Below, piece after piece: positions 14,842-21,431 of a stretch of DNA of 23,921 nucleotides. The notes beneath the pieces are model-generated. The model had not been told where the DNA came from. It was given only the letters and a program-made list of their open reading frames with translations, and searched no databases. A program made the position numbers and the translations under genes. This DNA comes from a virus: positions 1 to 23,921 of IMG/VR virus record IMGVR_UViG_3300050821_011038; one strand, written 5' to 3'. Numbering within the stretch: the stretch's first letter is position 1; each line of letters starts with the position of its first letter.

Positions 14842-15882
14842 CTATCCCAACATATCGCGGAGTTCGCTGCCAAGTGCTTCTCCGTCACCCGCAAGCACTC
14901 CGGGCAATTCAGGGGCAGCTGGAGCACCCTCTGGACGCGCGAACCCCCACTTTCGTTCGTAGGCAGCAACGGATATTTCGGTACGCTCCAGAGGGTCCCA
15001 CACTCTTTGCACGAAATGGGCTGGTAGCCATTCGTCAGGCGTACTGGATTTGCAAATACGTTGAAATCCACATCCACCATATTCTGTACATGCTCCGTCG
15101 AGGTCATAATCCCAATACCCCTCTTCCCAACATTGAATCATCCTGCGGATATCTCGCAGGGTCTGTTTTTCCCCCAGGTCTATTTCATGCTGACTGCGGT
15201 AGGTGGGGACTTCCAGAGTGTCGTATTTGGTCTTGAGGATAGACACGCCACGGACGATAGTCCCCTGCGGCTTTATACCCTGCTGTAGCAGAGCCCAGTT
15301 GTAGCCAGTGAATTGGGATCGCATCTCCCACTGACGGGACCAGGTCGCTCCCAATGCGGAAGTGGTCTTTTCATCATAATTCCATATTCCCGTGCCGTGG
15401 CGATTTGCGACCATGTCACTGCGTCCTGTATACAGGATGGGATTACCAGTAACAGGATGATTAATGGCCAAAGGTTCGGCGAACGAGAATTCAATTCCCT
15501 TTCTCCCTGAGGGTAGAGTAATCGGCTCCGCACCATCACCCCCGAGAGGGTAGTTGAAGAGATAGAACTCGAAAGCCCCGAGCATGCGCTCAAGGGACTT
15601 CGCAGAATCCGGGGGGCATTCGAAATCACCGTAGCTCTTGATGAGGGCTGACATACCGATTGCTTCAGCGTCGGAGTCGGATTTTCCGTCTACGTAATAG
15701 GCTTCGCGGGCTGCTTCGATTGCTGATGCGAATGCGCCACCGGCGACGAGATGGACGGATTTCTGAACTCCTTTCCAGTGCTCGACGTAGGACAGGAAGA
15801 ATTTTTGTGGGCATGCTCGGAAGGCAGCGAGTAAGGTGCTGTCGATCGTATGTGGGAACATGGGGCGGAATTTGGTCGTCAT
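14842..15882 (-). CDS. PD-(D/E)XK nuclease, Cas4/RecB-like
   Basis: The 346-residue protein has GRSDMV (Asp156), then NYDEKTT (Asp170-x-Lys172) and QFTGY (QxxxY, Gln190-Tyr194). These are the ordered motifs of Cas4/RecB-family nucleases. Cys24 (FRACPQKF) with Cys265, Cys271 and Cys277 (CTEYGGCGFQRIC) suggests the iron-sulphur cluster of Cas4/AddB enzymes. Expected activity is metal-dependent exonuclease on DNA ends. In this operon it would supply single strands to the Sak4 ATPase and SSB-like protein. No cas1, cas2 or CRISPR array is nearby. It ends GSELRDMLG, resembling the shared C-terminal peptide of other early proteins here. Confidence 0.88.
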   Translation of the reverse strand: MTTKFRPMFPHTIDSTLLAAFRACPQKFFLSYVEHWKGVQKSVHLVAGGAFASAIEAAREAYYVDGKSDSDAEAIGMSALIKSYGDFECPPDSAKSLERMLGAFEFYLFNYPLGGDGAEPITLPSGRKGIEFSFAEPLAINHPVTGNPILYTGRSDMVANRHGTGIWNYDEKTTSALGATWSRQWEMRSQFTGYNWALLQQGIKPQGTIVRGVSILKTKYDTLEVPTYRSQHEIDLGEKQTLRDIRRMIQCWEEGYWDYDLDGACTEYGGCGFQRICKSSTPDEWLPAHFVQRVWDPLERTEISVAAYERKWGFARPEGAPAAPELPGVLAGDGEALGSELRDMLG

Positions 15883-15883
15883 A

Positions 15884-16177
15884 TCAGCCCTCGATCGCCA
15901 GCAAATTATTAATTTGGCTCTGGATGTCGGTAACTTTTGCCTGGAATTCAGCCGAGATGCGTCGTTTCTCTTCCTGCAGTTCTTTGAGTTTTAAGTCTTT
16001 TGGATCAAGTTCCTGAATTTCAAATGTAATTGTGGTTTCGTTGACGACTTCTGCCCCTTGATAGGTCGGATATGGCCAGACAAAGTAATCTACAGATGGG
16101 ACGCAATCGCGTTTTTCTGCATCCCATCGGGCGACGGCTTTAGCCATCAGATAGACCGGCAATTCAATTGTCTTCAT
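15884..16177 (-). CDS. Hypothetical protein with C-terminal coiled coil (97 aa)
   Basis: The N-terminal part (MKTIELPVYLMAKAVARWDA) is followed by an aromatic segment (VDYFVWPYPTYQG). Residues ~55-95 form a charged heptad-like helix (DPKDLKLKELQEEKRRISAE) ending INNLLAIEG. Oligomerisation through this helix is likely. The start is preceded by the GAGGCTCAA leader, and the stop meets the nuclease start as TGATATG. Function unknown. Confidence 0.7.
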   Translation of the reverse strand: MKTIELPVYLMAKAVARWDAEKRDCVPSVDYFVWPYPTYQGAEVVNETTITFEIQELDPKDLKLKELQEEKRRISAEFQAKVTDIQSQINNLLAIEG

Positions 16178-16204
16178 TTTGAGCCTCTGTAGTGGTACTA
16201 CGGT

Positions 16205-16714
16205 TTAGTTGCTTCCGAGCAGCTTTTGCAATCCATCTACAGCCGGACCTTCGAGCCCTGACAGAATCTGCGCGCGGAACGAACGACGGAGATTTGCCTT
16301 ATAGGCTTCCTGTACGAGTCGTTCGATTTCTTTGTTTCGGTCTGCATTAGCCATGTAATCGGAGAAGTCCAGCTTCTGCACGACCCATCGAAGGGCGTAA
16401 TTCGCTCCCGGCTCGACAACTACCTCTTCATCCACGTCGATGACTGTAGCTGCCTTCAGTTGATTTGCCGCTTCTACCAATACGATATCGAATGGCTTCA
16501 CGTCCAAATGTGTGACGTAGGAGTAGAGTTTAAAATCCGTCTCCCCTGTGTTACGAACCCCTAGGCTCTCCAGCAAGTCCATTGCCGGTGCGCGTTGTTC
16601 TTCATCCAATTTCATCCCATCGATTGATGAGTTCTCGCGGATCAGTGAAAAAGCCACTTTGATCGTCTTTGCATCTTCACGCAGGAGTGCTGCGATATTC
16701 CTTTCGGTTGCCAT
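16205..16714 (-). CDS. Hypothetical phage protein (169 aa)
   Basis: The N-terminus (MATERNIAALLREDAKTIKV) leads into a beta-rich middle (LDVKPFDIVLVEAANQLKAA, then VIDVDEEVVVEPGANYALRW) that resembles a small SH3-like barrel. A charged helix follows (ADRNKEIERLVQEAYKANLR). The C-terminus is VDGLQKLLGSN, similar to the shared LLxELG-type tail. GAGGCTCAA precedes the ATG. Proteins of this shape occur in other phages, without a known role. Confidence 0.7.
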   Translation of the reverse strand: MATERNIAALLREDAKTIKVAFSLIRENSSIDGMKLDEEQRAPAMDLLESLGVRNTGETDFKLYSYVTHLDVKPFDIVLVEAANQLKAATVIDVDEEVVVEPGANYALRWVVQKLDFSDYMANADRNKEIERLVQEAYKANLRRSFRAQILSGLEGPAVDGLQKLLGSN

Positions 16715-16743
16715 TTGAGCCTCTTAAATAAGTGGTACTACGG

Positions 16744-16977
16744 TTAAATTCCCAATTCCTTCAACAGATCATCCGAGTTCACATCCTCCGGTTTTTGCTT
16801 CTTCGGCCGCGTTGCGGAACCTGCAGCCGCACGGGCCTTTGGCTTCGGAGCTTCCAATTGCGCGCGCTCCTTGCGAATTGCCTCGATTGCGATTTTCATT
16901 TCTTCGATTGAGAGTTGGCCAGCTGCGGCACGCGCTCGCCAGTCTTGGATTTGAGAGTCGATGATTTCAGAGGGCAT
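16744..16977 (-). CDS. Small protein with flexible linker and LLKELG C-terminal peptide
   Basis: I place the start at 16977 (MPSEIIDSQIQDWRARAAAG), with GGAGG six bases upstream; the longer frame overlaps the previous gene. The 77-residue protein is a helix (SIEEMKIAIEAIRKERAQLE), then a Lys/Pro/Ala-rich linker, then KKQKPEDVNSDDLLKELGI. The final 20 residues closely resemble the end of the 199-residue protein at 20832-21431. That design, with a short peptide on a flexible arm, suggests a binding partner for a common protein. Function unknown. Confidence 0.75.
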   Translation of the reverse strand: MPSEIIDSQIQDWRARAAAGQLSIEEMKIAIEAIRKERAQLEAPKPKARAAAGSATRPKKQKPEDVNSDDLLKELGI

Positions 16978-20477: not shown

Positions 20478-20484
20478 TAGAAAT

Positions 20485-20520
20485 GGAAAACGCCCCTGAC
20501 TCGGGGGAGAAAGGGGCGTT
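20485..20520 (-). terminator. Intrinsic terminator candidate ending the structured RNA
   Basis: Stem AACGCCCCT/AGGGGCGTT (9 bp; 20489-20497 with 20512-20520) with a 14-base loop. On the - strand it runs into TTTTCC. The T-tract is short, so efficiency is uncertain. Confidence 0.65.
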
Positions 20521-20524
20521 GGGA

Positions 20525-20780
20525 GCAGTAAGGCACAACCAGGGAGGCTCAGACCGTGGTCTATTACTGCAGAATGCTTTGCAAATACCCTTATCGCGGG
20601 GTGGTAGATCGGCCACCACAGCCTCATTACCTGTTCGGCTGGTTAGTTCCGAACCCCCTGGATAAGGGTACTTAGGGGGAGGCAGAGTAACCTAAGTCTC
20701 GTCTGCCTCCCGGCTCCCCTCCTTTTATCAGCTAGGGGCCGCTGCCTCCGCTTTCGCGGATCTTAAAGCGGGGTACTTGA
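20525..20780 (-). ncRNA. Candidate structured non-coding RNA downstream of the 199-aa gene
   Basis: About 310 bases without a gene are dense in perfect helices. TACCCTTATC/GATAAGGGTA (10 bp, 20586-20595 with 20661-20670) encloses three hairpins: GGTGG/CCACC (20600-20617), CAGCC/GGCTG (20619-20641) and GGTT/AACC (20641-20655). Outside lie GGGAGGCAGA/TCTGCCTCCC (10 bp, 20677-20686 with 20702-20711), GCAGTAA/TTACTGC (20525-20570) and TCCGC-GAAA-GCGGA (- strand, 20747-20760). The GAAA tetraloop and the following terminator favour the - strand. The multibranch part recalls a cloverleaf but the middle loop is 13 bases, so it is not a standard tRNA. A long 3' UTR is the alternative. Confidence 0.55.
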
Positions 20781-20831
20781 CTCGACACTACTAGGCCAAT
20801 TGACTTTTCGCTTCCTCGTTCCCCCTGACTC

Positions 20832-21431
20832 TTACGCCGCCAACTCATCCAGCAGCGAATTCGTATCGATTTCTTCCTTCGGCTTTTGCTTCTTCTTCGC
20901 TTCCAGTTCCTCGATCACCGGCTTGATCGTCGGATTTGCGCGCAGGGCAAGCTTTTCCGAGTTGTTCTTCGTCTTCAGATACGCGCGGACCTGCTCTGCG
21001 GTCTTGCCGGAGACTTGGACGAGGGCCTTCGCGAGCACCGACAGACCGGCCAGCGCGTTGCCTTCACCCTTCGCACGCTCTGCACCCCATTCGCCGGATT
21101 CGAGTCGGGCGATGAGCTCTTCTTCAGCGATGACCATGTCTTCGACATCATCCAGACCTGCGACCTCATCACCGAGCTTTTGCAACATGCCATGTGCGGC
21201 GAACTTTGCGAAGAGGGGTTTGTTCGCAGCGAGGGTCAGCGAGCGGGTTTCGCCATTCACGAAATCCAGCCGGATCGTCACATCGAAACCATCGTCGGAG
21301 ATTTCAGCGGTCTTCAACAGCCGACGCTTTCCCGCAAATTCCACTTCTCGACCATCGGCCATCACGACCTTTTTCACTTCAGTCTTTGCTTTCTTCGGTG
21401 CTGCGGTGCCCACTTCTACGGATTCGGTCAT
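20832..21431 (-). CDS. Conserved phage protein of unknown function, paralogue 1 (199 aa)
   Basis: The N-terminal part is basic (KKAKTEVKKVVMADGREVEF). FVNGETRSLTLAANKPLFAK then starts a domain shared with the 241-residue protein at 23142-23867 (FxNGxxxxxxA, hydrophobic helix, LKALV/LVRAL). GKTAEQVRAYLKTKNNSEKL and LRANPTIKPVIEELEAKKKQ are the second shared block. The end KKQKPKEEIDTNSLLDELAA carries the shared LLxELG-type peptide. Related proteins occur in other phages, function unknown. It has the best promoter of the window and a leader resembling that of its paralogue, so strong expression is expected. It may bind DNA or a host factor; this is speculation. Confidence 0.8.
   Translation of the reverse strand: MTESVEVGTAAPKKAKTEVKKVVMADGREVEFAGKRRLLKTAEISDDGFDVTIRLDFVNGETRSLTLAANKPLFAKFAAHGMLQKLGDEVAGLDDVEDMVIAEEELIARLESGEWGAERAKGEGNALAGLSVLAKALVQVSGKTAEQVRAYLKTKNNSEKLALRANPTIKPVIEELEAKKKQKPKEEIDTNSLLDELAA

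Follow-up and report, generated by a model that had tools for sequence, protein, structure and literature searches.

An LLxEL peptide on the tails of paralogous and unrelated early phage proteins and its probable role in docking

Background

Why should several early proteins of one phage carry nearly the same short peptide on their tails? The question is raised by a DNA stretch of 23,921 nucleotides (the whole of which is called the "window" here) from the IMG/VR record IMGVR_UViG_3300050821_011038, a 23.9-kb virus record with a long minus-strand stretch of early and replication genes. A first-pass annotation had drawn attention to peptides of the type LLxELG at or near the ends of several of the encoded proteins, and had supposed that they either recruit these proteins to one hub, in the manner of the tails of single-stranded DNA-binding proteins (SSBs), or serve as a shared degradation tag. 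We report here that the motif is shared by unrelated proteins of these phages, is conserved in them and co-varies between them within genomes, and that it is probably, as judged from these three properties, a docking peptide of its carriers for one common partner.

Carriers of the peptide

Three protein families, designated A, B and C, carry the motif, and the peptides that had been quoted from them were all found where the first-pass annotation had placed them, on the minus strand. Family A is represented by a 199-residue protein (20832-21431, minus strand) with a beta-rich N-terminal domain, a helical second half, a linker and a tail helix; its main peptide is IDTNSLLDELAA and the protein end reads ...KKKQKPKEEIDTNSLLDELAA, in which the tail motif IDTNSLLDEL (20841-20870, minus) is followed by AA and the stop codon, and residues 190-198 are predicted to form a separate helix. 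Family B is represented by a 241-residue paralogue of A (23142-23867, minus; BLASTP), in which the peptide VNTDELLNELG occupies residues 167-177 in the context ...VNTDELLNELGM...; here the motif VNTDELLNEL (23340-23369, minus) precedes an extension of 65 residues, in which NTRTSKKRLV lies close to the end. The family C protein has only 77 residues (16744-16977, minus), its start at 16977 agreeing with the M[AP]S start of its relatives, and consists of a short helical body, a basic, flexible linker of the Lys/Ala/Pro type (PKPKARAAAGSATRPKKQKP) and the tail. Its main peptide is VNSDDLLKELGI and its end reads ...PKKQKPEDVNSDDLLKELGI, the motif VNSDDLLKEL (16753-16782, minus) being followed by GI and the stop codon. 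The C-terminal position ascribed to the peptide holds for the A and C proteins of the window, where it lies near the end, and does not hold for B, in which the motif is not a C-terminus because 65 residues come after it. The sequence KKQKP, which had been noted as shared, is real in A and C and is confined to close relatives of the window.

Families A and B are 30% identical across 175 aligned positions that include the tail (BLASTP, E 2e-11) and are old paralogues, a relation that the first-pass annotation had not noticed, whereas C is unrelated to both. The tails of A and B are therefore not independent of each other. In the clade of the window, one more stretch of the B proteins is conserved, [AT]R[TS]SKK[KR]L, at their end and past the motif (23145-23339, minus).

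Relatives were collected by scanning IMG/VR with an A/B alignment, which yielded 78 loci, and a C alignment, which yielded 50, after which hidden Markov models (HMMs) were run on all open reading frames (ORFs) of the collected loci to give 150 distinct A/B proteins (79 classed as A and 71 as B) and 82 distinct C proteins. The resulting 132 sequences (loci) were merged into 97 groups, and A, B and C are all present in 47 of these. Among annotated phage records, relatives of A were found in two only, MW202489 (Manatee Spring) and the Microcystis phage Mel-JY34; plasmids, searched with C only, contained no relatives, and genome contigs contained one distant locus. Neither these families nor family D, a cysteine-pair protein considered further below, gave anything above the cut-off in Pfam or NCBIfam or anything at E ≤ 0.1 in PADLOC, and their matches in PHROGs were sub-threshold and to relatives only. 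The carriers belong to a little-known, almost uncultured phage group, and their families are unnamed in all four of these databases.

Conservation of the motif

The consensus drawn from 137 distinct motifs is [I/V][D/N][T/S][D][A/D][L][L]x[E/G][L/F], and across the 132 loci, which span dozens of phage lineages, most proteins of A, of B and of C have retained it. When the proteins were clustered at 60% identity, regular expressions written for the motif missed only 4 of the 23 representatives of A, 9 of 43 for B and 3 of 33 for C, and several of these failures are visible variants of the motif (SAADLLDELNG, VNTDALLASV); shuffled tails gave means of 0.35 (A), 0.55 (B) and 0.21 (C) matches per set. 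A position-specific scoring matrix built from the tails scored at least 12 in 90% of the A, B and C sequences, a circular figure in that the same sequences were used to build it. The same score was reached by 11 of 1043 other gene-like ORFs, which were drawn from clusters with at least four members and of which three were fragments of A or B and three belonged to family D, and by 3 of 1043 reversed sequences. Thus neither of the two outcomes that the first-pass annotation had named as speaking against it was seen: the tails are conserved in orthologues, and the motif is far commoner than in other proteins or shuffled tails. Its occurrence on the flexible linker-tails of proteins as different as A/B and C is what is expected of a shared short linear motif.

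The number of residues that follow the motif is variable, ranging from 0 to 36 in A and from 0 to 65 in B, while in C the motif lies no more than 3 residues from the protein end in 68 of 74 groups. The last of these figures is what a shared degradation tag might produce, but the extensions in A and B imply that a free C-terminus, as is needed for a degron of the ssrA/ClpXP type, is not needed in these families, and the motif is without an ssrA-like LAA ending. We therefore consider degradation a very improbable function of the peptide.

Variation of the tails within genomes

The motif varies among genomes in two features: its last hydrophobic residue is L or F, and the preceding residue (position 8) either is or is not acidic or Q. 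Both features match among the A, B and C proteins of one genome, as for example in locus L046, where the tails contain LLGKF, LLSKF and VLAKF. For the last residue the A-B pairs comprise 5 FF, 0 FL, 2 LF and 49 LL (Fisher p 5e-6), and the corresponding Fisher values are 0.0018 for A-C and 8e-5 for B-C; when weak motif calls are left out, the values for the three family pairs are 5e-6, 0.017 and 7e-4. The L/F state requires 5-6 parsimony changes per family, and simulations of its independent evolution on a tree of the A core gave 0 exceedances in 3000 runs for A-B, p 0.002 for A-C and p 0.0003 for B-C. Position 8, with 9-16 changes per family, gave phi values of 0.55, 0.41 and 0.44 for the three pairs (simulated p 0.00025, 0.002 and 0.002), and this signal survives removal of the F genomes in partial Mantel tests. 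Positions 0-4 of the motif show no co-variation between families. A G+C bias behind the L/F switching was rejected, the G+C content of F and L genomes being equal (p 0.47).

A chance or compositional likeness of helical protein ends, with counts inflated by related phages, might draw on the paralogy of two of the families and on the relatedness of many of the loci. It is contradicted by the shuffled, reversed and other-gene controls, by the clustering at 60% identity and by the tree-simulated nulls, and appears to us the least probable of all the explanations considered. Nor does common descent explain the co-variation of the tails, because C is unrelated to A and B; a shared binding partner does explain it. 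Since the co-variation of the tails within genomes persists when phylogeny and G+C content are controlled for, the docking interpretation holds, and the recruitment to one hub that the first-pass annotation had envisaged is probable. The LLxEL peptide would then be a short docking motif, formed by an amphipathic helix with acidic N-cap residues before it and carried on flexible tails by three early proteins, of which A and B are paralogues and C is small and unrelated to them. One groove of a single partner would accept each of these tails, so that the three protein bodies would be gathered there, probably in early DNA replication or recombination.

Several points weigh against this interpretation. 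The divergent lineage L088 has degenerate tails although its core genes are present, and the group of loci L118, L121, L124, L127, L130 and L131 has a weak A tail (VDADAEL) while keeping a C tail of its own. The co-variation test was devised after examples such as L046 had been noticed in the data, the tree simulations depend on one gene tree, partial Mantel tests may err on the anticonservative side, and paralogues make up two of the three families. Finally, no candidate hub co-varies significantly with the tails in screens that have low power: partial Mantel tests of whole-protein change against tail change in 11 families of core proteins, and column screens in which the L/F state was set against 9 families and position 8 against 11, gave nothing significant after correction.

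The highest partial correlations in the whole-protein tests were those of the A core (p 0.026) and the C core (p 0.036; both uncorrected, 11 tests), and the lowest column p was that of the B core (0.041, uncorrected). Such values, together with the occurrence of one A and one B protein in 63 loci, would fit an arrangement in which the tails bind each other or a domain of A/B, and in which the three proteins make up a single complex and need no separate hub; a complex of this kind would likewise account for the co-variation. None of the p values survives correction for multiple tests, however, and C has a body unrelated to those of A/B, which means that a common pocket could exist only in A/B or that the tails would have to bind one another. 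We regard such a complex as the most serious competitor of docking on a common partner, yet an unlikely one.

Structure of the family A protein

An AlphaFold2 model of A from a 65-row alignment has a mean pLDDT (predicted local distance difference test score) of 85.3, and of 94.9 for the N-terminal domain alone. It comprises five strands and two helices, the helical second half, a linker of lower confidence and the separate tail helix of residues 190-198. With the motif shared by A, B and C, this modelled helix after a linker agrees with the earlier description of a common peptide of amphipathic type on flexible tails. Neither the whole chain nor the N-terminal domain has a significant match in the PDB, and a search of BFVD with A matched only three proteins at E ≤ 0.001. 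For the N-terminal domain no Foldseek E fell below 0.1; weak matches to Pur-alpha, COMMD and the T5 PC4 homologue recurred, those of the Pur-alpha/PC4-like type with Z 3.0-4.3 (best for Pur-alpha, 4.3), and these may be taken as a sub-significant pointer to a nucleic-acid-binding fold.

These matches to proteins that bind single-stranded DNA (ssDNA) bear on another possible role of the tails, that of autoinhibitory or DNA-mimicking elements which fold onto the nucleic-acid site of their own protein, as has been proposed for acidic SSB ends. Acidic residues do lie ahead of the hydrophobic core of the motif, and the very C-terminus of the T4 gp32 protein has been proposed to serve ssDNA-binding functions (PMC11551737). 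The co-variation, however, falls in the hydrophobic and not in the acidic half of the motif, the fold scores are below significance, and C is tiny and has no recognizable nucleic-acid (or ssDNA-binding) domain. This role of the tails seems to us decidedly unlikely.

Candidate partners of the tails

Within the docking interpretation, the leading guess is that the hub is a member of the Sak4, SSB-like, nuclease and polymerase module; a host protein is possible and comes next. The Sak4-like ATPase (13299-14234, minus) is recognized by PHROG 124 (E 1.9e-16) and Pfam AAA_24 (E 2.1e-8). Adjoining it is an SSB-like candidate (12476-12934, minus) with a conserved N-terminal FDADSFLN (12905-12928); a peptide FD[PA]xxFL[DN] is conserved at this place in the candidate and its relatives. 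Among the orthologues listed, all stop at the domain and have no acidic C-terminal tail. Only a weak similarity to DUF669 was seen, in one relative, where E was 0.02 and did not pass the cut-off, and a profile comparison found no similarity to the SSB of phage HK620. Between the nuclease and Sak4 lies a 124-residue protein with a CxxC pair (14459-14833, minus), which is kept in 76 locus groups and for which annotated phage records (tblastn), PHROGs and NCBIfam gave no match. The family-A DNA polymerase gene is split into separate open frames in L139 (G001:C1) and L141 (G006:C1).

The helicase Dda was considered as a hub because gp32 docks on the Dda of T4. In lineages with a retained C tail (the 45.3-kb record behind L130, and L131, L124 and L112), no Dda-like helicase was detected, and the complete 44.4-kb record of the Microcystis phage, which has a divergent C tail, gave the same result. 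One of these searches ran without a positive control in the same run, and the same-family HMM finds Dda in 63 other groups. As a general hub, Dda is disfavored.

Related peptides in neighboring genes

Family D, which has 65 relatives, is a zinc-finger-like protein with cysteine pairs (19910-20368, minus) and carries the sequence LDDLLGES (20327-20350, minus) near its N-terminus. The pattern LD[DA]LLxES lies ahead of the first CxxC in 48 of the 65 relatives and is present in two copies in 7, against an expectation from shuffling of 0.009 per protein. It is a cousin motif, placed at the opposite end of the protein from the tail peptide, and may likewise bind the hub.

Two looser forms of the motif that the first-pass annotation had added to the set do not belong to it. 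The PD-(D/E)XK nuclease (14842-15882, minus; Pfam PDDEXK_1, E 4.1e-8), which contains SELRDMLG, has a conserved C-terminal peptide of its own, GDGEALGSELRDMLG (14845-14889), and a comparison of the C-termini of its relatives led us to reject it as a member. In the clade of the window this related-looking but distinct peptide reads LG[DE]EL[KR]xL[LM] and follows a Pro-rich linker, and in the nuclease of another clade the place is taken by LQ[DN]SFAxLM; it is possibly a second docking peptide. The other form, VDGLQKLLGSN, is the ordinary end of a 169-residue protein (16205-16714) that was found in a small clade only and lacks the motif.

Comparison with known docking tails

Among known systems, those that come nearest are the tails of the SSB type in phage HK620 (the SSB with Sak4) and in phage T7. 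The gp2.5 protein of phage T7 uses a tail similar to that of the gp4 helicase, and on the same T7 DNA polymerase. The negatively charged C-terminal tails of gp4 dock on this polymerase, and their removal lowers processivity (PMC8472574). Docking of tails on a replication protein would be the feature in common with the phages described here; the T7 tails, however, work mainly by charge on basic patches, whereas the conserved and co-varying part of the present motif is hydrophobic and helical. Bacterial sliding clamps offer another parallel, that of one short motif placed on many proteins for a single replication hub, with a consensus of the type Q-x-x-L/M-x-F. When this motif was sought as Q-x-x-[LM]-x-[FL] or QL[SD]LF, it proved absent: the strict pattern matched no tail, and a loose one matched 6 of 80 tails in C, none of 75 in A and none of 64 in B.

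The bacterial SSB tail differs in being acidic with a hydrophobic end of the P-F type at the free C-terminus, whereas here the form is LLx[EG][LF], often with more residues after it. An end of the SSB type was not found in the three families; only the distant relatives in L088 and L133 end in DLP[IL]. In these A/B-type proteins, L133:286-744(+), L133:906-1352(-) and L088:9953-10498(+), DADLPI, DSDLPI or AADLPL replaces LLxEL, and such ends resemble the bacterial SSB tail. In phage HK620 the C-terminal tail of the SSB recruits Sak4 to SSB-covered DNA, and its last six residues are needed (PMC5928155), which makes Sak4 a reasonable first guess for the hub in the window. In both systems an early phage protein bears a short tail, and the window likewise has a Sak4-like gene near a possible SSB; the HK620 tail, however, is NDYPPF and is on the SSB itself, while here a different, helical motif is on three other proteins and the SSB-like candidate has no such tail in the orthologues listed.

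A resemblance almost to the letter is that to T4 gp32, which ends in ...DDTDLDDLLNDL (LDDLLNDL) and whose C-terminal region (the A domain) recruits replication proteins. The solved contact between gp32 and Dda involves residues 248-270, and the LDDLLNDL end bound Dda weakly within a peptide of residues 271-301 (PMC11551737). There, one SSB carries the end, as opposed to three proteins here, and no homology of the protein bodies was seen; the A/B profile matched no solved chain at E up to 1, and hence no gp32 entry, with no direct comparison to the gp32 fold being made.

Conclusions

Docking by shared tails is already known from T7 and from SSB proteins. In the present phages a tail is common to several unnamed families and changes in step in them over at least five independent switches. 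One might speculate, with considerable doubt, that the recruiting tail has moved in these phages from the SSB, which is seemingly tailless here, to the separate adaptors A, B and C, with an N-terminal version in D, to constitute a multivalent docking code for one replication-recombination hub. The natural switches from L to F and from E to G provide matched pairs for tests of specificity, and the tail peptide itself can be used directly as bait for the hub and offers a handle on the early biology of an almost uncultured group of phages.

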